A stretch of DNA of 64,000 nucleotides from Serratia proteamaculans (GTDB taxonomy: Bacteria > Pseudomonadota > Gammaproteobacteria > Enterobacterales > Enterobacteriaceae). The translations under genes were made by a program, and so were the position numbers. The notes below the pieces were generated by a model that was not told the origin of the DNA, did no database searches, and worked only from the letters and a program-made list of their open reading frames with translations. Positions 3,894-22,722 of this stretch are shown piece by piece (position 1 is the stretch's first letter; each line of letters opens with the position of its first letter). The stretch is from NCBI RefSeq assembly GCF_013337185.1, contig NZ_SWDE01000001.1, positions 1,550,001 to 1,614,000 on the forward strand. Direction: 5' to 3'.

Positions 3894-4142
3894 TTATTTA
3901 TACAAGTCCGCCGTACCGTAGACATGATTGTTGACGGTGACAGAAGTGATGCGATAGCCACTCGCCCCTTGTTGCCTTGCATCGGCAGCAATTGACTGCT
4001 CAAAGTCATTTAACGTTGACGCCTGGCTGGAAACCACGCCAATTTTTTGCAGTTGCTGAGCGTTTTCCGCAGTTACCGGCGCGGCAGCCAATACTGCCCC
4101 GCTGATGCAGGCCAATACCACGGCCAGGATAAGGTTTTTCAT
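3894..4142 (-). CDS. BhsA/McbA/YdgH-like small periplasmic stress protein (DUF1471)
   Basis: This is an 82-residue exported protein: a signal peptide (about residues 1-20, ending AVLA) precedes a small DUF1471 domain. The domain motif is the run from QKIGVVSS through the final TADLYK. The family (BhsA/YcfR, YhcN, McbA) consists of stress-induced envelope proteins linked to peroxide, acid, biofilm and chlorine responses. ATG at 4142 has a GTGAGG site; longer in-frame starts read through non-signal sequence. It is last in a leftward unit, 62 bases after the MxKDx gene and before a terminator, so it is probably co-expressed with the redox module. Confidence 0.85.
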   Translation of the reverse strand: MKNLILAVVLACISGAVLAAAPVTAENAQQLQKIGVVSSQASTLNDFEQSIAADARQQGASGYRITSVTVNNHVYGTADLYK

Positions 4143-4204
4143 GATAAACACCTCACTATTGTTGAAAAGACCGGCGACCCAAGCCGCCGGAGTTGGCACG
4201 GGGT

Positions 4205-4510
4205 TTATTTCCCCATCGCATCTTTTTTCATTTCATCTTTCTTCATGCCGTCTTTGGCCATGCTGTCTTTTTTCATAGCGTCATGTTTCATCGCATCCTT
4301 ACTCATGCTGTCTTTCTTCATGCAATCCTTGCTCATGCAGTCTTTCTTCATGGCGTCTTTTTTCATGCCATCTTTAGCCATGCCGTCATGAGACATCTGG
4401 CCCATGTTGTCCTTTTTCATCGAGTCCTTACTCATGCTGTCTGCAGCATTGGCACCGATAGAACCCAACATCAACGCACTGCACATCATCACTGCGAATA
4501 ACTTTTTCAT
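4205..4510 (-). CDS. methionine-rich MxKDx pentapeptide repeat protein, exported
   Basis: This 101-residue precursor has a signal peptide of about 22 residues (MKKLFAVMMCS..ANA). The mature part, about 79 residues, is almost entirely tandem pentapeptides of the form xMxKD. It holds 16 methionines (about 20%), many Lys and Asp, and two repeats carrying Cys. The repeat is a recognised family (pentapeptide MxKDx, TIGR02953) without an assigned function in this organism. ATG at 4510 follows a GAGAAGG site. It lies 59 bases downstream of an MsrP-like molybdoenzyme gene on the same strand. A role as a sacrificial oxidant sink whose Met sulfoxides the enzyme reduces is my inference; metal binding by Met/Asp/Cys is an alternative. 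Confidence 0.9.
   Translation of the reverse strand: MKKLFAVMMCSALMLGSIGANAADSMSKDSMKKDNMGQMSHDGMAKDGMKKDAMKKDCMSKDCMKKDSMSKDAMKHDAMKKDSMAKDGMKKDEMKKDAMGK
4208..4444 (-). repeat. 15-base tandem repeat array encoding MxKDx pentapeptides
   Basis: The mature-coding part of the gene is built of about 14-15 degenerate 15-base units (GAT-GGC/AGC-ATG-AAA-AAA type on the coding strand). The units vary at the fourth base of the plus-strand tcttt/tcctt pattern and at the x codons. The array is in frame, so unit gain or loss would change only length. Confidence 0.85.
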
Positions 4511-4569
4511 GGTATTTCCTTCTCTCATTTAAAAAGCACCTGTGTGCCGGGGGATAGTTGTGGCCGCCG

Positions 4570-5358
4570 TTAACTGCCACCAAACCAGTTGTAACCTTGG
4601 TCTTCCCAGTAACCGCCGGGAAAACGATTGGTGACTTCAATCACCTGAATATGTTTCGGATTCTTGTAGCCGAGCTTGGTCGGCATGCGCAGCTTCATCG
4701 GATAGCCGTATTTTCGCGGCAGGATTTGGCCGTCGTAGGTCAGCGCCATAATGGTTTGCGGATGCAGCGCCGTGGCCATATCAATGCTGGTGTAGTAATC
4801 GTCGGCGCATTTAAAGCTGACATATTTGGCGCTCAGGTCTGCGCCGACCGCCTGGAGAAACTCCGCGAACGGCACTCCGCCCCATTTGCCAATAGCGCTC
4901 CAACCCTCTACGCAAATATGGCGAGTCACCTGGCTGATTTGCGACATCTTGTGCAATTGCGGCAGCGTCCAGGGCTGCTTATTCAGCACCAGTCCGTTGA
5001 CCTCCAGCCGGTAGTCGTTACCATTGATCTCCGGTGCCTGCTCCTCGGCATAAAACGCGTTGAACGGAAACGGACGGGTGATCATCGACTCGGCATACAC
5101 CGGTGCCAGATGGTCGGCATTGAACAGCCAGCCCTGTACCCGGTCGTTAAACCGCGATATGCGGTTCAGCGCCTGTTCGACATTGGCGTTGTCGCTGATG
5201 TCACACCCGGTGAGCATCGCAATACCGCCCAATGTCAGTCCGTTGCGCAGGAAGCGACGACGCGAAGAGGACTCCAGCTGGCGTGCCAGCAGCTGCTGCG
5301 CTTCCCTGACTATCTCCCGCCCTTCGCTCAGGCTTATTGGGTCTTTTTCTGTTTTCAT
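4570..5358 (-). CDS. Tat-exported molybdopterin oxidoreductase, MsrP/YedY-like (copy A)
   Basis: This is a 262-residue sulfite-oxidase-fold protein. The twin-arginine motif SRRRFLRNG is at residues 32-40, followed by a hydrophobic stretch ending in a lipobox-like LTGC at 49-52. The molybdenum-ligand cysteine is Cys149 in RHICVEGWSAIGKWGG. By family it should be a periplasmic reductase or dehydrogenase such as the methionine sulfoxide reductase MsrP. It is shorter than E. coli MsrP (334), so the substrate is uncertain. ATG at 5358 has a GGAGAG site. It lies 10 bases after its cytochrome b partner and upstream of the Met-rich protein. A close paralogue is at 21955-22722. Confidence 0.9.
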   Translation of the reverse strand: MKTEKDPISLSEGREIVREAQQLLARQLESSSRRRFLRNGLTLGGIAMLTGCDISDNANVEQALNRISRFNDRVQGWLFNADHLAPVYAESMITRPFPFNAFYAEEQAPEINGNDYRLEVNGLVLNKQPWTLPQLHKMSQISQVTRHICVEGWSAIGKWGGVPFAEFLQAVGADLSAKYVSFKCADDYYTSIDMATALHPQTIMALTYDGQILPRKYGYPMKLRMPTKLGYKNPKHIQVIEVTNRFPGGYWEDQGYNWFGGS

Positions 5359-5368
5359 CAGGCTCTCC

Positions 5369-5980
5369 TTAACGTCCACGCAGCATGGCCAACAGCGTGC
5401 GTGGCACCAGCGCCACCATCACCAGATGTACCACCACAAAACCCACCAGCCCCGACATGGCAAAAAAGTGGATGTACCGCACTGTGTCATAGCCGCCGAG
5501 CAGGTCACGCAACAGAGGGAATTGCACCGACTTCCACAACACCAGGCCGGAAAGCACCATTACCACGCTGGCAACCATCACAAACAGATAGGCCGCCCGT
5601 TGCACCATGTTGTAATGGCGCAGGTCGTTATGGCCGAGCTTGCCCCGCAGCGCCGCCAGTAAATCGCCGAGCAGGGCTTTCGGGCTGAGCGGCCAGAATT
5701 TGCGTTTCAGCCGACCACTGAACAAATTAATCAGCAGATAACACAGCCCGTTAATCCCAAACAGCCACATGCCGGCAAAGTGCCACTGCAGTGCGCCACC
5801 CAACCAACCACCCAGCGTCAGTTCATTGATAAAGCTGAAGTTAAACAGTGGCGAAGCGTTATAGATGCGCCAACCGCTGGTGACCATAATCAGCATCGCC
5901 AGCGCATTCAACCAGTGCGTCAGGCGCAGCCACAGCGGATGGATCAGCGCGGGTTTTTCCGGCGTAACAGACATATCCAT
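5369..5980 (-). CDS. cytochrome b561-type membrane subunit (copy A)
   Basis: This 203-residue integral membrane protein has four hydrophobic segments. Candidate haem histidines are in LTHWLN, QWHFAGMW, RYIHFFAMSG and VVVHLVMV. By analogy with MsrQ/YedZ and other b-type partners it should pass quinol or flavin electrons to the adjacent periplasmic molybdoenzyme. ATG at 5980 follows GGAGAG; in-frame codons further upstream belong to the promoter region. It is first in the leftward four-gene unit and divergent from the two-component system. A paralogue is at 20067-20684. Confidence 0.9.
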   Translation of the reverse strand: MDMSVTPEKPALIHPLWLRLTHWLNALAMLIMVTSGWRIYNASPLFNFSFINELTLGGWLGGALQWHFAGMWLFGINGLCYLLINLFSGRLKRKFWPLSPKALLGDLLAALRGKLGHNDLRHYNMVQRAAYLFVMVASVVMVLSGLVLWKSVQFPLLRDLLGGYDTVRYIHFFAMSGLVGFVVVHLVMVALVPRTLLAMLRGR

Positions 5981-6040
5981 GGAGTCTCTCCTGACGTTAG
6001 CGGTTTCGATGTACTGAGTATCCGTCTGATTTGTTCCCCA

Positions 6041-6111
6041 AGACCTCACGCAAAGTTAAATAAAATGTGATAACTCCGGCCCTGCGGGTTGTGTAGACTT
6101 CAATCAGGTCT
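6041..6111. promoter_or_regulatory. candidate response-regulator half-sites, module A
   Basis: The 151-base divergent region holds AGACCTCA (6041-6048), AGACTTCA (6095-6102) and TCAGGTCT (6104-6111). The last two form an imperfect inverted repeat. These repeated octamers are candidates for binding by the neighbouring OmpR-type regulator; no direct evidence. Confidence 0.35.
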
Positions 6112-6131
6112 GGCAATCAGCGGTGAGAAGA

Positions 6132-6845
6132 GTGGAAAAGCCAAAGAAAATTTTAATCGTCGAGGATGACGGCAACATCGCAGAGCTGCTGCAATTACAT
6201 CTGCGCGATGAAGGCTATGACATCAGCCATGCCGCCGATGGCAATCTGGGCATGGCCATGCTGGAACAGGGCGGCTGGGATGCACTGATCCTCGACCTGA
6301 TGCTGCCGGGCATTGACGGGCTGGAGATCTGTCGTCGGGCACGCAATATGACGCGCTATACGCCAATCATTATTACCAGCGCGCGATCCAGCGAAGTGCA
6401 TCGCGTCCTGGGATTGGAACTGGGCGCTGACGACTACCTCGCCAAGCCCTTCTCGATGCTGGAATTGGTGGCCAGGGTCAAGGCGCTGTTTCGCCGCCAG
6501 GAGGCGATGAGCCGCAACCTGCGGATGGACGCCGGCACCCTGAGTTTCGACGGGTTAACCATCGATCCGATTGCCCGAGAAGTGCATTTGAACCAACAGA
6601 ATGTCGATCTGACGCCGCGTGAATTTGATCTGCTGTATTTTTTTGCCAAACATCCCGGCAAGGTATTTTCCCGCCTCAGCCTGCTCAATCAGGTCTGGGG
6701 TTATCAGCACGAAGGTTACGAGCACACGGTGAACACTCACATCAACCGGCTGCGCATCAAGATCGAAACCAACCCGGCGGAACCCGAGCGCATCCTCACG
6801 GTGTGGGGCATGGGCTATAAATTCGCGGCTATGCCGCAAGAGTAA
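6132..6845 (+). CDS. OmpR/PhoB-family response regulator (module A)
   Basis: This DNA-binding response regulator has about 237 residues. The receiver domain starts with the acidic pair in VEDDG and has the phospho-acceptor Asp near residue 55 (LILDLMLPG) and the lysine in AKPFS. The C-terminal winged helix ends with the family pattern around HINRLRIKIE and VWGMGYKF. I chose GTG at 6132, where GGTGAG is suitably spaced; GTG at 6123 would add three residues but lacks a site. The kinase gene starts three bases after its stop. The divergent placement suggests it controls the cytochrome b/molybdoenzyme/Met-rich operon. Confidence 0.9.
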   Translation: MEKPKKILIVEDDGNIAELLQLHLRDEGYDISHAADGNLGMAMLEQGGWDALILDLMLPGIDGLEICRRARNMTRYTPIIITSARSSEVHRVLGLELGADDYLAKPFSMLELVARVKALFRRQEAMSRNLRMDAGTLSFDGLTIDPIAREVHLNQQNVDLTPREFDLLYFFAKHPGKVFSRLSLLNQVWGYQHEGYEHTVNTHINRLRIKIETNPAEPERILTVWGMGYKFAAMPQE

Positions 6846-6848
6846 ACC

Positions 6849-8312
6849 ATGAAAAATCTTACGCTAACGCAACGTCTGACCCTGATCTTCGCCCTGTTGA
6901 TGGTAGTCAGCTGTGCCATCTCCGGCTGGATGCAGGTGCGCAGCAGCACCCAGTACAGCCAGGCGGTGATCCAACGGCTGTCCGGCAATCTGGCGCAGCA
7001 CATTGCCGACAGCAACCCGCTATTGGGGCAAAACGGCCTGAACCCGCAGTCGGTGCAAAGCCTGTTTGGACAACTGATGGCGGTGAATCCCAGCGTTGAG
7101 GTTTATCTGCTCGATAAGCAGGGCGAGATTATCGGCAACGCCGCACCGGCAGGTCACCTGAAGCGACAAAAAGTGAGCCTGCAGCCGCTGCAAGCACTCT
7201 TCAATGGTGCCAATATGCCGATTTACGGCGATGACCCGCGCAATCCGGAGGCCAAAAAGGTGTTCAGCGCCGCGCCACTGAAGGTCAACGGTCAGGTTGA
7301 GGGCTATCTGTACGTGGTATTGCTGGGCGAGGAGTACGATACGCTGACCAGCTCTGCCTTGCATAACTCCGCGGTCTCCATGGCACTGTGGACGTCGGGC
7401 CTGATGGTGCTGTTCAGTCTGGTGGCCGGTGGTTTTGCTTTTTATTGGGTGACACGACCTATCCGTCGTCTTACACGCCAGGTCAGTGAGCTGGACAGCG
7501 GTGGCATCGCGGCGGTGCAAGCCTATGCGGCGCTGCCGGCCGAAGGCGGTCGTGATGAAGTCAGCCGACTGCAACAAGCGTTCAGCAGCATGGCGCAACG
7601 TATAGCCGAACAGTGGCAGACGCTTTCGCAGCAGGATCAGCAACGCCGCGAGTTCATCGCCAATATCTCGCACGATCTACGCACCCCACTGACTTCGTTG
7701 CACGGCTACCTGGAAACGCTGTCGGTTAAATCGGCCAGCCTGAGCGAAAACGATCGCCAACGTTATCTGGAGATTGCGCTGGCGCAGAGCCGTAAGGTCG
7801 GCCGATTAGCGCAGGAACTGTTCGAGCTGGCGCGGCTGGAATATGGCGTAGTGAAACCGCAGAAAGAGCCGTTCTCGCTCAGTGAATTGGTGCAGGACGT
7901 GTTTCAGAAGTTTGAATTGGCGGCGGAAGCTCGCCAGCAACGGTTGCTGGCGGACATCGCCCCCGGCATTCCGTTGGTGTTTGCCGATGTCAGTATGATT
8001 GAACGGGTGCTGACCAACCTGCTGGATAACGCCATCCGCCACACGCCTCAGGGCGGTGAGATCGAGGTCCGCCTGTGGCAACAGGCGGGCAAGGTGCTGG
8101 TACAGGTTAATGACAGTGGCCCGGGTATCCCACAAGAACTACGCGCCGATCTGTTTGTGCGCCCTTCTATTCTCAGCAGCGCCCGCCGCCATGCCAGCGG
8201 GCTGGGGTTGATGATCGTGCGGCGTATCTTGCTGCTGCACGACAGCGATATCCAATTGGTCGAGCGGCCACAAACCGGTGCCTGTTTCCGCTTTTCGATC
8301 CCGTTACGCTAG
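6849..8312 (+). CDS. sensor histidine kinase (module A)
   Basis: This 487-residue inner-membrane kinase has TM1 at about residues 8-28, a periplasmic sensor domain to about 175, TM2 at 178-200, then HAMP. The HisKA domain has His275 in ISHDLRTPL. The ATPase domain has an N box NLLDNAIRHTP and G1 box DSGPGIP. The expected F-box (F-x-RFYR-x-D) is replaced by LFVRPSILSSARRHA, while the later GLGLMIVRR motif is intact. The kinase is translationally close to its response regulator. The periplasmic signal is unknown. Confidence 0.9.
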   Translation: MKNLTLTQRLTLIFALLMVVSCAISGWMQVRSSTQYSQAVIQRLSGNLAQHIADSNPLLGQNGLNPQSVQSLFGQLMAVNPSVEVYLLDKQGEIIGNAAPAGHLKRQKVSLQPLQALFNGANMPIYGDDPRNPEAKKVFSAAPLKVNGQVEGYLYVVLLGEEYDTLTSSALHNSAVSMALWTSGLMVLFSLVAGGFAFYWVTRPIRRLTRQVSELDSGGIAAVQAYAALPAEGGRDEVSRLQQAFSSMAQRIAEQWQTLSQQDQQRREFIANISHDLRTPLTSLHGYLETLSVKSASLSENDRQRYLEIALAQSRKVGRLAQELFELARLEYGVVKPQKEPFSLSELVQDVFQKFELAAEARQQRLLADIAPGIPLVFADVSMIERVLTNLLDNAIRHTPQGGEIEVRLWQQAGKVLVQVNDSGPGIPQELRADLFVRPSILSSARRHASGLGLMIVRRILLLHDSDIQLVERPQTGACFRFSIPLR

Positions 8313-17192: not shown

Positions 17193-18617
17193 TTAATCTG
17201 CAGCGGGAAAAATCAGACTAAAGGTGATCCTGGAGGTGGTATTCCCTTCGGCACACTGGGCACGACTAACCCCGCCGTGCAGCGTCATGATTGCGCGGAC
17301 GATTGCCAGCCCCAGACCACTGGCATGGCTGCCGGCACTGCGGGCTGCATCGGCGCGGTAGAAACGGTCGAACAACTTGTCAAGATGAGCCGGGGCAATC
17401 GCTGGCCCCTGATTAACCACCTGCACAACCACTTCGCCAGTCTGCTGATTGAGGGTTTGCAGCAATATCTGGCTGTTCTCATCGGCATAACGCACCGCAT
17501 TGGCCACCAGGTTGCTCAATGCACGCTGGAACAACATGGCATCCGCCAGCAATGGCCCTGCGCCCTGGCACACCAGCGTAATACCGCGCTCTTCCGCCAG
17601 GCCTTCAAAATAATCAGCCACCCGTTGCAGCTCATGCGCCATATCAAGGCGACTGAGGTTCAGTACTGCTTGCCCTTCGCCGGCACGCGCCAGGAACAGA
17701 ATATTTTCTACCATGCGCGAAATGCGTTCCAGCTCATCCATATTGCTCGACAACAGGGTTTCATACTCTTCCACGCTGCGTGACTGATACAACGCCACCT
17801 GACACTGCCCCATTAGCGCGCCCACCGGAGTCCGGATCTCGTGCGCCAGATCGGCGGAAAACTGCGTCAGACGTTGATAGCCTTCGTTCAGCCGATCGAG
17901 CATGGCATTAAACGAACGTGTCAGTTGCTGCAATTCCTTCGGCGCCCCCTGCTCGCTCAGGCGAGTCGACAGCGTGTTCGGCGTAATTACCGCCGCCTGC
18001 GCCGCCATGCGCCATAATGGCTGCAACCCACGACGCATCACCCAATACCCCAGCAATGCAATCAACACAAACGCCATCGCCACCGCGGCCACAATCCGCC
18101 AAAGATAACGCGCCAGCATCTTCTGTTCATTGACCAACACGTGTGCGGCCGAGATTTGCAGCAGGCGGCCGTCCTCCAGTTTGACCAACGCCGATACGGC
18201 CCGCAGCGGCACGCCTTGTGGCGTTTGCCCACCGTGCACCGCGCTCAAGCGCTGCGGCGTGCCAACCGGCGTCGGCACTATCGCCGGCAGACTCAGCCTG
18301 GCCGGGTTAACGTTGATTAACGGTTTTTGTCCCGGTAGCTGAAAAATCAGTACGTCCTGTTCGTTACCCAGCATATTTTCGAACAGGCCGGTATTCGCCG
18401 TCAGCCGCTCGAGAGGAAAGCGCTGGCTCAGCAAATGGCGAAAATACTCCACCCGTCCGGTGACCTGTAAATCGCTGCGGATAGTCATCTCCTGACGCAT
18501 CGCGCCATACAGGTACCATCCCGCGCCACTAACCACCAGTGCCGCCACCAGCGCAAACAGCATCGCGCTGCGCAGCGTTAACGACAGCGCCCGCCAGCGT
18601 TGGGCCAAAGCCTTCAT
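17193..18617 (-). CDS. CusS/HprS-like sensor histidine kinase (module B)
   Basis: This inner-membrane kinase of about 474 residues has TM1 near residues 15-38, a periplasmic domain to about 170, TM2 near 175-195 and HAMP. The H box [11 protein letters not shown] has His near residue 259. An N box ([11 protein letters not shown]), a complete F-box [13 protein letters not shown] and GLGLAIVR follow. It belongs to the heavy-metal/HprS class. ATG at 18617 overlaps the regulator stop by four bases (ATGA); a TTG 15 bases earlier is less likely. E. coli HprRS controls msrPQ, which fits the divergent cytochrome b/molybdoenzyme genes here. Confidence 0.9.
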
Positions 18618-19285
18618 GAACGCGGCTCGCAAACGTAGCCGATGCCGCGCACGCTGTGGATCAGCTTGACGTCAAATGGCCGATCAATCTTGGCACGTAG
18701 CCGCTTGATCGCCACATCCACCACGTTGGTATCGCTGTCAAAGTTCATGTCCCAGACCTGCGAGGCGATCATGGTGCGTGACAGCACCTCCCCTTCGCGA
18801 CGCACCAACAGGTGCAGCAACATGAACTCTTTGTTGGTCAGCGGGATCACCTGTTCTTGCCGTACCGCTTTGCGGCGCAGGACGTCGAGCTGCAGATCGG
18901 CAATCGCATAGTGGTCGGCCTCGCGTACCGTGCCGCGCCGCAATAGCGTGCGCAATCGCAACACCAGTTCAGTGAAGGAAAAAGGTTTGATCAGATAATC
19001 ATCGGCCCCCAGCTCCAGGCCATGAATACGATCCTGCACCCCGTCGCGAGCGGTCAGAAACAGGATCGGCACGTCGCTTTTCTTGCGCAGCACCTCAATG
19101 ATCTGCCAGCCATCCAGCCCTGGCAGCATTACGTCGAGCACAATGGCGTCGTAGGCATCTTCAAGCGCCCGAAACAGGCCGTCGGTGCCGTTACGCGCCA
19201 AATCTACGCTGTACCCGGCCTCGCCCAGCCCTTTCTTCAGGTAATCACCCGTGCTGATGTCGTCTTCAACTACCAATATCCGCAT
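18614..19285 (-). CDS. CusR/HprR-like response regulator (module B)
   Basis: This OmpR-family regulator has about 223 residues. It has the acidic pair in VVEDD, phospho-acceptor Asp51 (LDVMLPG), Lys in IKPFSF, and a C-terminal winged helix ([23 protein letters not shown]). ATG at 19285 is eight bases after GAGG; the GTG at 19294 sits on that site. It is first in the leftward two-component unit, divergent from the module B structural genes. A CusR-type palindrome lies in the shared promoter region. Confidence 0.92.
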
Positions 19286-19340
19286 TATCGCCACCTCATT
19301 ACACCAGCCGAAATATTAGCAGCTTCGGCAGACCTGCTTG

Positions 19341-19356
19341 ATGACATTAATGTCAT
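19341..19356. promoter_or_regulatory. CusR/HprR-type operator palindrome
   Basis: ATGACATTAATGTCAT is a perfect 16-base palindrome in the 140-base divergent promoter region. It contains TGACA-N4-TGTCA, the spacing of the CusR box. It probably lets the regulator control both its own operon and the 19426-22722 genes. Confidence 0.65.
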
Positions 19357-19425
19357 TAAACGGACATGGTGCTGTCCCTGTTGTTCAACCATGCTTAACC
19401 GGCAACCTAAACAGAGGAGAACATT

Positions 19426-20052
19426 ATGATTACCCGTCATCGTTTTGCCGGTTTACTGCTGTCCACCCTGATGCTGTGCAGCGGAGCCGCCGCTGCGGCT
19501 CAAACGCCAGGGAAAGTGATTGCTCCACTGCGCGGCACTATTGATCAAGTGACCGACAGCAGCCTGCAGGTTACCGACCGTAAAGGGGAGAAGGTCAATG
19601 TCAAACTCAACGATCAGACGAAGGTGCTGAGCGTTTCAAAAGGTACGCTCGATGACATTAAACCGGACAGCTTTATCGGCACCGCTGCGGTACCCCAAGC
19701 GGACGGCAGCCTGAAAGCGTTGGAAGTCCACGTCTTCGCCGCCAGCCTGCGCGGCACCGGTGAGGGCCATTCGGCCTGGGAATCGGCCGACGGCAAGGTG
19801 GATACCATGACCAACGGCACCGTCGGTAAACTGGTTAAATCCAACGGCCGTACTCTGACCGTGACCTACGGCAACCAGCAGAAAACCGTTAACGTGCCGG
19901 AAGATGTGCCGATCGTGACGCTCGATCCCGGCGATCGCAGCCTGCTGAAACCCGGCGCGCACATCGTGTTGTTCTCCGCCACTGACGATAAGGGCGAACG
20001 CGTCGCCACCCGCATTTCTGCCGGCAAAGACGGCACCGTTCCACCGATGTAA
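19426..20052 (+). CDS. exported protein of unknown function with two OB-like repeats (DUF5666-like)
   Basis: The 208 residues include a signal peptide of about 25 residues (ending AAAAA). The mature part has two similar beta-rich segments. The first runs from GTIDQVTDSSLQVTD to KVLSVSKGTLDD, the second from GTVGKLVKSNGRTLTV to PGAHIVLF. I do not know a function; resemblance to DUF5666-type periplasmic domains is a pattern judgement. It follows an AGAGGAGA site and is 14 bases upstream of cytochrome b copy B, so it belongs to the module B operon. It takes the promoter-proximal position and is not Met-rich, unlike the small protein of module A. Confidence 0.8.
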   Translation: MITRHRFAGLLLSTLMLCSGAAAAAQTPGKVIAPLRGTIDQVTDSSLQVTDRKGEKVNVKLNDQTKVLSVSKGTLDDIKPDSFIGTAAVPQADGSLKALEVHVFAASLRGTGEGHSAWESADGKVDTMTNGTVGKLVKSNGRTLTVTYGNQQKTVNVPEDVPIVTLDPGDRSLLKPGAHIVLFSATDDKGERVATRISAGKDGTVPPM

Positions 20053-20066
20053 CTCGGGAGTCGATG

Positions 20067-20684
20067 ATGAAAACCAACGCGCCGCGACCGGTGCACCGCT
20101 GGCCGGTACGCCTTACCCATTGGATTAACCTGTTCGCCATGGTCTGCATGTTCATGAGCGGTTGGGAAATCTACAACGCCTCACCGCTGTTCGGCTTTCG
20201 CTTTCCGCCGCAGGTCACGCTCGGCGGTTGGTTGGGGGGCGCGATTGGTTGGCATCTGGCGGTCATGTGGCTGCTGGCAGGCAACGCGCTGTGCTATTTC
20301 CTGTGGAGCCTGTTCAGCGGCCATTTTCGACGCGATCTGCTGCCGCTCACCGCCGGTAAGTTACGGCGTGATATCTGGCAGGCGTTAACGCTGCGACTAA
20401 AGCATCAACACGGCCGTTATAACGCCATTCAAAAGCTAATGTACCTCGGCGTACTGGTTCTCGGGTTGTTGCTGGTGCTCTCCGGGCTGGCAATCTGGAA
20501 ACCGGTGCAGCTACAAGGGCTGGTCAGCCTGTTCGGCGGTTTTGATATCGCGCGTTATGTGCACTTTTTCGCGATGTCCGGCATTGGTTTATTTGTGGTG
20601 ATCCACCTGCTGATGGTGATGATCGTGCCGCGCACGCTATGGGCAATGATTACGGGTGGCAAGCTTGACTGCTCCCCGCCCTAA
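20067..20684 (+). CDS. cytochrome b561-type membrane subunit (copy B), C-terminus altered by an insertion
   Basis: This paralogue of the 5369-5980 gene has about 205 residues with four membrane segments and the same histidine motifs (LTHWIN, GWHLAVMW, RYVHFFAMSG, VVIHLLMV). It is the expected electron donor to the downstream molybdoenzyme. The last six codons (L-D-C-S-P-P) and the stop are read from the end of an inserted element; the original C-terminal tail is lost. The core fold should be unaffected. ATG at 20067 is six bases from GGGAG; ATG at 20064 is also possible. Confidence 0.88.
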   Translation: MKTNAPRPVHRWPVRLTHWINLFAMVCMFMSGWEIYNASPLFGFRFPPQVTLGGWLGGAIGWHLAVMWLLAGNALCYFLWSLFSGHFRRDLLPLTAGKLRRDIWQALTLRLKHQHGRYNAIQKLMYLGVLVLGLLLVLSGLAIWKPVQLQGLVSLFGGFDIARYVHFFAMSGIGLFVVIHLLMVMIVPRTLWAMITGGKLDCSPP

Positions 20685-20716
20685 AGGGCGAGGATTCCCA
20701 CTTCACTGAGTCGAAC
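20674..20716 (-). ncRNA. probable omega-RNA scaffold 3' end (right end of the tnpB element)
   Basis: In IS605-type elements the omega RNA overlaps the tnpB 3' end and right end; its guide is the flanking DNA immediately beyond the right end. Here the conserved hairpin (20674-20693) lies just beyond the tnpB stop. The adjoining flank is the end of the cytochrome b gene (plus-strand positions below about 20665). Presence is inferred from element type and layout; the 5' end is not determined. Confidence 0.45.
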
Positions 20717-21847
20717 CTAAGCCGCTTGATGCGATTCAGGATTTACAGACTCTCCGTGGGCTAACGCTGCCAGCCCGGCAGCTTTTATATTCCGTGCCGC
20801 ATTAATGTCACGGTCATGGCTTGTCTGACATTCCGGACAATTCCATTTACGAACATCAAGAGGTAATTTTTTCATGGTGAAGCCGCAACAACTACAACGC
20901 TTTGAGGACGGGAAAAACGGGGCAATTGCGACCAGTGAACGCCCGCCCCATTCAGCCTTGTATGCGAGCTGGCGCACAAACTCGCCCCAGCTTGCATCGG
21001 CTATCGCTTTCGACAGCTTAGGGTTGCGGATCATGTTCTTCACTTTCAGGGATTCAACGCAAACAACTTGGTTATCGTTAATCAGTTTGCGGGACAACTT
21101 GTGCAAGTTATCCATGCGGCAATCGGCAATTTTCGCGTGGAGTCGGGTCACCTTCAAGCGGGCTTTAGCGCGGTTTTTCGAACCTTTCGCTTTTTTGCTT
21201 AAACGGCGCTGAAGTAGCGCCAGGCGAGCCGCGTATTTAGCGGTATGGCGGGGATTGCCTTGTTTAAATCCAGTGTCAGTAACGAACAAATCCTTTAAGC
21301 CCACATCAATGCCCACGGTTTTAGCGGAAATGGGCAGTGATACAGGTTCAAACTCGCACAGACAGGAAATGAAATATCGTCCGGCTGCATCTTTGGAAAT
21401 AGTGACGGTTGACGGCACGGAGGGGAGTTCACGGCTCCAGCGCACGTCCAATGGGGCTTTGCTCTTAGCCATATGCAGCTTGCCATCACGATATTTAAAC
21501 GCGCTGGCGGTCAATTCAGCGACCTGTTTGTGGCGTTTGCTTTTGAATGCGGGATATTTAGCCCGACCTGCAAAAAAGTGAGAAAAGGCCGTCTGTTGGT
21601 GGCGTAGCGATTGTTGCAAGGGGACACAGGAAACGTCATTGAGCCATGCGCATTCAGGCTCTTTTTTAAGCGCGGTTAACCGCGCATTAGCTTGCAGATA
21701 GCCGATCTTCTCCTGGCGTTCATAGTAAGCATCAGTACGCCAGCGAAGGATTGAATTATAGACAAAACGCACACAGCCGAACGTTTGAGCCAAAAGCTCA
21801 ACCTGATCGGCTGTTGGATAGAATCGGTATCTGTAAGCGCGTTTCAT
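20717..21847 (-). CDS. tnpB: RNA-guided endonuclease TnpB
   Basis: This 376-residue OrfB/TnpB protein has an N-terminal helix-turn-helix-like region (MKRAYRYRFYPT start, typical), then a RuvC-like nuclease. The catalytic residues are Asp181 (GIDVGL), Glu265 (VESLK) and Asp347 (HDRDINAARN). A zinc finger of Cys318/Cys321 and Cys337/Cys340 sits between them. All key residues are present and the frame is intact. ATG at 21847 begins the family-typical N-terminus; a longer reading to 21985 would run through the element end. Such nucleases help retain the element by cutting empty sites next to a target motif. It is antisense to the host operon. Confidence 0.95.
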   Translation of the reverse strand: MKRAYRYRFYPTADQVELLAQTFGCVRFVYNSILRWRTDAYYERQEKIGYLQANARLTALKKEPECAWLNDVSCVPLQQSLRHQQTAFSHFFAGRAKYPAFKSKRHKQVAELTASAFKYRDGKLHMAKSKAPLDVRWSRELPSVPSTVTISKDAAGRYFISCLCEFEPVSLPISAKTVGIDVGLKDLFVTDTGFKQGNPRHTAKYAARLALLQRRLSKKAKGSKNRAKARLKVTRLHAKIADCRMDNLHKLSRKLINDNQVVCVESLKVKNMIRNPKLSKAIADASWGEFVRQLAYKAEWGGRSLVAIAPFFPSSKRCSCCGFTMKKLPLDVRKWNCPECQTSHDRDINAARNIKAAGLAALAHGESVNPESHQAA

Positions 21848-21954
21848 ATGTACAAAATTACAGGAGCTATCGTGAAAAGACAAAAAGAAGTTAGCTCGAA
21901 AACCGCCTCCTTTCCTCCCCGGCCTGAAGGCCGAGGTTTCCCGGAGGCACTCTG

Positions 21955-22722
21955 ATGAGTGATAAAAAACAGCGCCCTGCGGCACCCACGTTGGAGCCGG
22001 CGCAAAAGAAACAATTGGTCAATCTGCAGCGCCGCCTGATGCTGCGCTCCGGCCTGACCCTGGGCGGCATCGCCATGCTGAGCGGCTGCAACCTGCAGGA
22101 CGGCGATCAGGTCGATAAAGTGTTGTGGGCAATGTCGCGCTGGAACGATCGTGTGCAGGCCTGGCTGTTCAGTGGCCAGAAGCTGGCGCAAACCTATCGC
22201 CCGGATCAAATCACCCATCCCTTCCCGTTTAACGCGTTTTATCCCGAGTACAACGTGCCGGAAGTGGATCTGGCCAGCTATCAGTTGGAAGTCTCCGGCA
22301 AGGTAGAGAAAAAAGCGCCCTGGACGCTGGAACAGCTGCAGCGCCTGCCACAGCAAAGCCAGATAACCCGTTTGATCTGTATCGAGGGCTGGAGCGCCAT
22401 CGGCCAATGGGGCGGCGTGCCGCTGCGCAACTTCCTGCAGCACGTCGGGGCGGATCTGAACGCGCGCTATGTTGGCTTCAAATGCGCAGACCGTTATTAC
22501 TCCAGCATCGACATGGCCACCGCGCTGCATCCACAGACCATTCTGGCGCTGGATTTCGGCGGCAAGGCGCTGCCGGCAGATTACGGCTACCCGCTAAGGC
22601 TGCGGGTACCCACCAAGCTGGGGTTCAAGAACGCCAAACATATCGCCGCTATTTTTGTCAGTGATACCAACCCCGGCGGCTACTGGGAAGATCAGGGTTA
22701 TAACTGGTTCAGCGGTATTTAG
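21955..22722 (+). CDS. Tat-exported molybdopterin oxidoreductase, MsrP/YedY-like (copy B)
   Basis: The 255 residues form a sulfite-oxidase-fold protein paralogous to 4570-5358. It has a twin-arginine pair at residues 26-27 (LQRRLMLRSG), a lipobox-like LSGC at 42-45 and the molybdenum-ligand Cys142 (LICIEGWSAIGQWGG). The C-terminus GGYWEDQGYNWF is nearly identical in both copies. ATG at 21955 has an excellent CGGAGG site directly beside the inserted tnpB element. Transcription from the module B promoter must now cross 1.28 kb of antisense tnpB, so expression may be reduced. The substrate is unproven. Confidence 0.9.
   Translation: MSDKKQRPAAPTLEPAQKKQLVNLQRRLMLRSGLTLGGIAMLSGCNLQDGDQVDKVLWAMSRWNDRVQAWLFSGQKLAQTYRPDQITHPFPFNAFYPEYNVPEVDLASYQLEVSGKVEKKAPWTLEQLQRLPQQSQITRLICIEGWSAIGQWGGVPLRNFLQHVGADLNARYVGFKCADRYYSSIDMATALHPQTILALDFGGKALPADYGYPLRLRVPTKLGFKNAKHIAAIFVSDTNPGGYWEDQGYNWFSGI

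Follow-up and report, generated by a model that had tools for sequence, protein, structure and literature searches.

A stretch of 64,000 nucleotides of Serratia proteamaculans DNA (contig NZ_SWDE01000001.1, positions 1,550,001 to 1,614,000; hereafter the window) carries, between positions 3,894 and 8,312, a leftward gene set for a cytochrome b, an exported molybdoenzyme and a methionine-rich MxKDx repeat protein, divergent from the genes of a response regulator and a sensor kinase. Judged on its sequence, this unit is an envelope oxidant-defence operon of an already known kind, the Serratia-type ortholog of OrhK/OrhR and C3566–C3568 of uropathogenic Escherichia coli (UPEC). The features of the locus are as follows, with the matches that identify them in brackets.

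3894–4142, minus strand: BhsA-like (DUF1471) exported protein, an accessory gene in a variable place (PF07338, 5.5e-16; NCBIfam BhsA, 83.5 bits).
4171–4190, minus strand: terminator-like hairpin between the MxKDx and BhsA-like genes (8 pairs, 7 of them G-C, then TCTTTTCA).
4205–4510, minus strand: MxKDx repeat protein, exported, Met-rich, probable oxidant sink (TIGR02953, 1.5e-27, 95.3 bits).
4570–5358, minus strand: molybdopterin enzyme, predicted Tat (twin-arginine translocation) lipoprotein, probable Met-sulfoxide reductase (PF00174, Oxidored_molyb, 1.4e-29).
5369–5983, minus strand: membrane cytochrome b (cytochrome b561/Ni_hydr_CYTB), probable quinol-to-enzyme electron carrier (PF01292, 1.4e-23).
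6046–6070, unstranded: candidate OrhR-type operator TCACG-N15-TGTGA (inverted-repeat pattern, conserved in relatives).
6123–6845, plus strand: response regulator of the OmpR/PhoB type, OrhR orthologue (PF00072, PF00486).
6849–8312, plus strand: sensor histidine kinase, OrhK orthologue (PF00512, PF02518, PF00672).

Gene calls and family matches bear out the gene set, strands and coordinates given in a preliminary description of this DNA, together with its leftward intergenic gaps of 10, 59 and 62 bases (cytochrome b/molybdoenzyme/MxKDx/BhsA-like) and its count of 16 Met in the 79 residues of the mature MxKDx protein, for which the signal cleavage site, between ANA and ADSM, was placed by eye. 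A BetT-like transporter gene adjoins the operon, and identity to Serratia quinivorans proteins is 97–100% (L065).

Two collections of relatives were compared. The first set comprises 29 loci, namely the window, 23 same-genus genomes, one Rahnella, three E. coli and a plasmid of Yersinia ruckeri, while the second comprises the best 80 of 223 named relatives and is hence biased to close ones; the two share genomes (e.g. S. grimesii) and their counts are not summed. In the 80 named loci the Met-rich gene was recognised by a custom pattern, with crude start codons that leave some lengths too short. As can be seen from the same-genus genomes with an MxKDx match, the genes for MxKDx, enzyme, cytochrome, regulator and kinase stand in identical order and orientation in 24 out of 24, and this conserved five-gene arrangement is not due to chance. 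In the named relatives the Met-rich pattern matches exactly once per locus (80/80), always at most some 300 bases downstream from the gene of the enzyme, and the cytochrome gene also flanks the enzyme gene in all 80. In the co-occurrence search put forward in the preliminary description, enzyme and MxKDx are present in the identical 24 of 30 genomes of the genus, and in an evenly drawn order sample the enzyme (E ≤ 1e-60) and an above-cut-off MxKDx protein occur in the identical 7 of 295 genomes, adjacent in each (probability about 3e-14 by simple combinatorics that ignores kinship). Comparison supports the grouping of Met-rich protein, molybdoenzyme, cytochrome and dedicated sensor into one conserved unit.

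The unit of sensor, repeat and operon is spread over many Enterobacterales genera as well as Achromobacter, Bordetella and Pseudomonas, patchily, as the order sample illustrates. Relative to the window copy, the enzyme is 81% identical on the Yersinia ruckeri plasmid, 74% in Rahnella, 67% in the E. coli plasmid version and 63% in the E. coli chromosomal version. Of 5426 E. coli genomes, 73 match the plasmid-type version, on a plasmid in every case, and 283 match the chromosomal type (from ATCC 25922). The 3972-base ATCC 25922 stretch (L063) is 100% identical in CFT073; its cytochrome gene is annotated as frameshifted (L063:2732–3330), in a stretch that is thus the same in both strains. On the Yersinia ruckeri plasmid (L002), IS6 transposase genes enclose the enzyme, cytochrome and Met-rich genes, and neither a kinase nor a regulator is annotated in the vicinity. 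The copy in a record that bears the title Chryseobacterium sp. 18061 (L111) looks enterobacterial (enzyme identity 71%), and the assembly is perhaps mislabelled or mixed. A recent mobile origin of the window copy found no support, the BetT-like gene lying about 0.7 kb or less from the MxKDx gene in 23 of the 24 same-genus loci and 4 kb from it in the remaining one (L057).

The preliminary description suggested that control of such an operon by a two-component system might be an undescribed variant. This is not supported: OrhK/OrhR with c3566–c3568 has been published (PMC8550376; papers are cited here and below for the parts of their text that were covered), as has a Brucella system in which an extracytoplasmic function (ECF) sigma factor controls an MXKDX protein and homologues of MsrPQ (PMC8315932). 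In UPEC strain CFT073, c3566–c3568 are co-transcribed, the regulator binds a promoter fragment, peroxide induces the system and mutants are sensitive; TCACA-N15-TGTGA was put forward as the OrhR site (PMC8550376). Gene order is shared with the Serratia locus, the proteins are orthologous and the inverted repeat is near-identical. The two loci differ in their surroundings, with a BetT-like neighbour and a BhsA-like gene in Serratia; for the UPEC operon, read-through into the hemolysin operon has been reported (PMC8550376). Regulator and kinase are 71% and 49% identical, respectively, to the E. coli plasmid orthologues, figures that express identity and not a tree.

The candidate operator, missed by the preliminary description, lies between the divergent units and differs by one letter from the published repeat. 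TCAC(A/G)-N15-TGTGA stands upstream of the cytochrome gene in all 28 first-set loci with a regulator (24 same-genus, one Rahnella, three E. coli); in the first-set locus without one, the Yersinia ruckeri plasmid, a search of 253 bases did not find it. A genome-wide scan with the 25-base consensus, allowing up to 3 mismatches, returned 6046–6070 as its sole match, and a reversed-pattern control returned 0. In the named relatives, 71 of 73 loci with a regulator match contain TCAC-N17-GTGA, as do 3 of 7 without, where chance would place this wider pattern in <1% of 510-base stretches by simple arithmetic. The wider search fixed 8 of the 25 bases, hence the 85% identity over the whole 25 is partly built in; the inner 15 bases were free and are 77% identical on average, with 53% and 52% in the 30-base flanks, across 18 representatives that were picked by hand and represent some genera more than once. 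In the 7 named loci without a regulator match, no ECF sigma factor was recognised by eye in the reading frames upstream of the cytochrome gene, no family search having been made. The divergent regulator and kinase, the conserved repeat upstream of cytochrome b–molybdoenzyme–MxKDx and the protein families can thus be read from the letters themselves. Alignment of the kinases (74 sequences, of which 2 were removed by length, leaving 72) reveals conserved segments in the sensor region, among them LF--LM--NP-VE-YL and VFS-AP; within this region no Cys and a single Met (M77) are at least 95% conserved. A Cys switch in the sensor domain appears unlikely because no Cys reaches that level there.

The molybdoenzyme carries a Tat twin arginine (RRRFLRNG) and, directly behind it, the lipobox LTGC, in which position +2 is an Asp; the lipobox had escaped the preliminary description. 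Twin Arg, LTGC and CVEGW are all invariant across 5 orthologues, and alignment of 23 enzymes including the paralogue leaves the twin Arg, the lipobox Cys and the C, E, G and W of the motif invariant. Under the Lol rule, Asp at +2 of a lipoprotein leads to inner-membrane retention, which suggests that the predicted lipoprotein is held at the inner membrane. C149, the Cys of CVEGW, probably ligates the Mo. The label "MsrP-like" given to this enzyme holds no more than loosely. It has the CVE-W motif of MsrP around the Mo-ligand Cys, as well as the molybdopterin domain, in common with E. coli-type MsrPQ. Against the label, the MsrP model (NF003767) scores it at 83 bits with a cut-off of 207, it is 24% identical across 137 residues to the genome's own MsrP, and it has a lipobox and a PF01292 partner. 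The genome additionally encodes a canonical MsrPQ (L006), of which the MsrP is without a lipobox as judged by eye and the MsrQ belongs to PF01794. The operon cytochrome, a PF01292 protein, is not of the MsrQ family and has no significant BLASTP similarity to the genome's own MsrQ, and therefore the 23.1% identity reported between C3566 and MsrQ (PMC8550376) is not proof of family membership.

A different activity, that of a sulfite dehydrogenase or of a small sulfoxide/N-oxide reductase, with the Met-rich protein in a protecting or assisting role, would be in keeping with the sulfite oxidases among the profile matches (1.6e-9 at best) and with a match to SorA (2e-13). The best profile matches are to MsrP (2.4e-23 for the family model; 5e-13 for PDB 1xdq). 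The entry title of 1xdq is sulfite oxidase; we take it to be YedY/MsrP. The sulfite oxidase row 1ogp shows cagnrr where the enzyme has the CVE-W motif, which is that of MsrP. Sulfite oxidases carry a second domain, for which there is no space here, the Oxidored_molyb domain ending at residue 251 of the 262-residue enzyme. We regard this alternative as very improbable.

The MxKDx protein passes the curated cut-off of the penta_MxKDx model (TIGR02953; 95.3 bits with a cut-off of 41), and its repeats hold Met, His and Cys. Two Cys lie within the Met repeat of the window protein, a feature overlooked in the preliminary description, and two are kept in the MxKDx proteins of all 29 first-set loci (24 same-genus, 5 others). 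They are needless for a pure Met sink, and this lends some weight to a reading in which molybdoenzyme and cytochrome perform general envelope Met-sulfoxide repair and MxKDx is a separate metal binder or structural peptide, with no recycled sink. The same reading draws on UPEC, where protection is attributed to c3566/c3567 (PMC8550376), and on MxKDx-like proteins that exist without this enzyme. It is countered by the adjacency of enzyme and Met-rich gene in 80/80 named relatives, by their identical presence and absence in the genus, and by the Cys pair itself, which we rejected as a general MxKDx feature: two Cys are present in 47 of the 80 named relatives and zero in 33. General repair with a separate MxKDx protein thus appears unlikely.

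New here is the variability, across lineages, of the place behind the Met-rich gene. Of the 24 same-genus genomes, 16 have an RclC-family (DUF417) gene there, an assignment made from one representative, two have a BhsA-like gene (the window and one other) and six have nothing before the next gene; the RclC/RcrB-family loci are L041, L043, L046, L049–L058 and L060–L062. Among the 80 named relatives, BhsA-like genes occupy the place in three (S. grimesii, Serratia sp. Ag1 and S. oryzae), and MsrB and/or MsrA genes follow on the same strand in 18, with both genes in 15. These 18 loci are 15 from Achromobacter (e.g. L116, L126, L139, L140), one from Bordetella (L110), one from Pseudomonas (L118) and one from an unclassified gammaproteobacterium; L108 is likewise among the 18. 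Identity as MsrA or MsrB was established by Pfam for 7 proteins from 6 loci and by tblastn for the others, and the 7 proteins read have apparent export signals as judged by eye. Loci L123, L130 and L132 stop shortly past the Met-rich gene and L110 shortly past MsrB; all were retained among the 80. The presence of MsrA/MsrB in this place is an independent genomic argument that favours Met-sulfoxide chemistry. Such arrangements are not described among the literature matches listed, most subscription journals lying outside their coverage.

The preliminary description counted the BhsA-like gene as a member of the unit. We rejected it as a core member on the counts above and on the 16 PF07338 matches in the genome, of which the BhsA-like protein is one. 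NCBIfam BhsA (NF047859) is its best model, yet its 83.5 bits miss the cut-off of 90, while the DUF1471 domain is matched. The hairpin at 4171–4190 is no more than chance (3 such sites in the region, with 3.0 expected from shuffles), and the wider stretch around it shows no unusual stability (z −1.0). A promoter-like site close to the BhsA-like start is likewise no more than chance by shuffle counts. Given the 62-base gap, the BhsA-like gene is probably transcribed either by read-through or from a start within the MxKDx gene. RclB, RclC and RcrB, of the DUF1471/DUF417 families, are linked to resistance to hypochlorous acid (HOCl) or hypothiocyanous acid (HOSCN) by a mechanism reported as unknown (PMC12096828, PMC9600549). 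They share these families with the Serratia extra genes, which do not reach the RclB and RclC equivalog cut-offs, but belong to other operons with RclR and RcrR as regulators (PMC12096828, PMC9600549). We tentatively propose, at not quite even odds, that the 3′ end of the operon is a regulated accessory slot, in which one conserved sensor and operator would drive lineage-specific add-ons: BhsA-like, RclC/RcrB-like, MsrB with MsrA, and, via read-through, the UPEC hemolysin operon. If so, the recurrent choice of DUF417/DUF1471 would tie these obscure proteins to periplasmic Met-sulfoxide or chlorine stress.

The Met, His and Cys of the repeats also fit copper or silver handling, in which the repeats would bind Cu(I) or Ag(I) next to BhsA as a copper-linked envelope protein; in E. 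coli, BhsA has been linked to copper permeability (PMC12096828), and a CopRS/HprRS-like pair accompanies a paralogous enzyme elsewhere in the window. The operon's own kinase and regulator do not reach the heavy-metal models (TIGR01386/TIGR01387), scoring 165.4 of 292.55 bits and 169.6 of 279.2 bits, respectively, the identified genes behind MxKDx in relatives are of MsrA, MsrB, RclC and BhsA types, and BhsA is rare at the locus. Metal handling is, on this evidence, distinctly improbable.

We consider it probable that the locus encodes an OrhKR-type envelope oxidant defence in which a Met-rich sink is recycled by a membrane-anchored molybdoenzyme under its own sensor. For the electron route, the substrate and the signal we infer the following. 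The kinase would sense a periplasmic oxidant or oxidant damage, and the phosphorylated regulator would bind the inverted repeat and turn the leftward operon on. The exported MxKDx protein would then have its Met oxidised in place of the Met of other envelope proteins. Electrons would flow from quinol via the cytochrome to the molybdoenzyme, which, lipid-anchored on the periplasmic side of the inner membrane, would reduce the Met sulfoxides and so return the sink to use. The BhsA-like protein would be a lineage-specific extra, in a place where relatives carry other oxidant-related genes. Reaction rates make HOCl or chloramines more plausible oxidants for a Met sink than H2O2. For HprSR, which controls msrPQ in E. 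coli, a review describes HOCl as the stronger signal compared with H2O2 (PMC10151825).

Several points weigh against a recycled Met-rich sink. The enzyme scores below the MsrP cut-off, as given above, and the literature covered yielded no assay of this enzyme group. In UPEC, stress phenotypes are given for c3564–c3567 mutants and, in the text covered, none separately for the Met-rich c3568, with a figure title that names c3566–c3568; the stressors were tert-butyl hydroperoxide and macrophages, with no HOCl test in that text (PMC8550376). In the class sample of 369 genomes, a further 14 have an MxKDx-like match (E ≤ 0.001), with an enzyme homologue in the flanks of 3, flanks here being about 1.5 kb and shorter in two. 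Of 13 genomes of the order sample, 6 show an MxKDx match below the cut-off only and lack an enzyme at E ≤ 1e-60. The presence of both MsrA and MsrB genes in some operons may point to another substrate of the molybdoenzyme.

Two systems are like the proposed one by description. MrpX/YedY1 of Azospira suillum combines a Met-rich peptide that scavenges hypochlorite with a reductase of Met sulfoxide, as proposed here, but under sigF/nrsF control (PMC5748585). The Brucella melitensis bcrXQP operon, with its MXKDX protein and MsrPQ homologues, is reported to be HOCl-induced and to contribute to HOCl resistance, and differs in its control by an ECF sigma/anti-sigma pair (PMC8315932). With the core already known from UPEC, the value of the present analysis lies in the comparison across lineages, which places RclC/RcrB-family and DUF1471 proteins beside a concrete periplasmic substrate system.

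A second, paralogous redox unit lies at 17193–22722 of the window. Its CopRS/HprRS-like kinase and regulator both score above the heavy-metal cut-offs, and the divergent genes encode an exported protein that resembles DUF5666 with a score under the Pfam cut-off, a cytochrome b, and another molybdoenzyme with a lipobox. This second enzyme is 62% identical to the first (tblastn) and present in 24/30 same-genus genomes. Between the second regulator and the DUF5666-like gene, at 19341–19356, is a perfect palindrome, ATGACATTAATGTCAT, which resembles a CusR/HprR box. A TnpB-like transposase frame, named by eye, lies at 20717–21985 between the second cytochrome and second molybdoenzyme genes. The two redox units stand side by side, kinase to kinase, in 7 of 23 same-genus loci (L047, L048, L050, L052, L057, L059, L061); in the window a fimbrial chaperone-usher cluster separates them.

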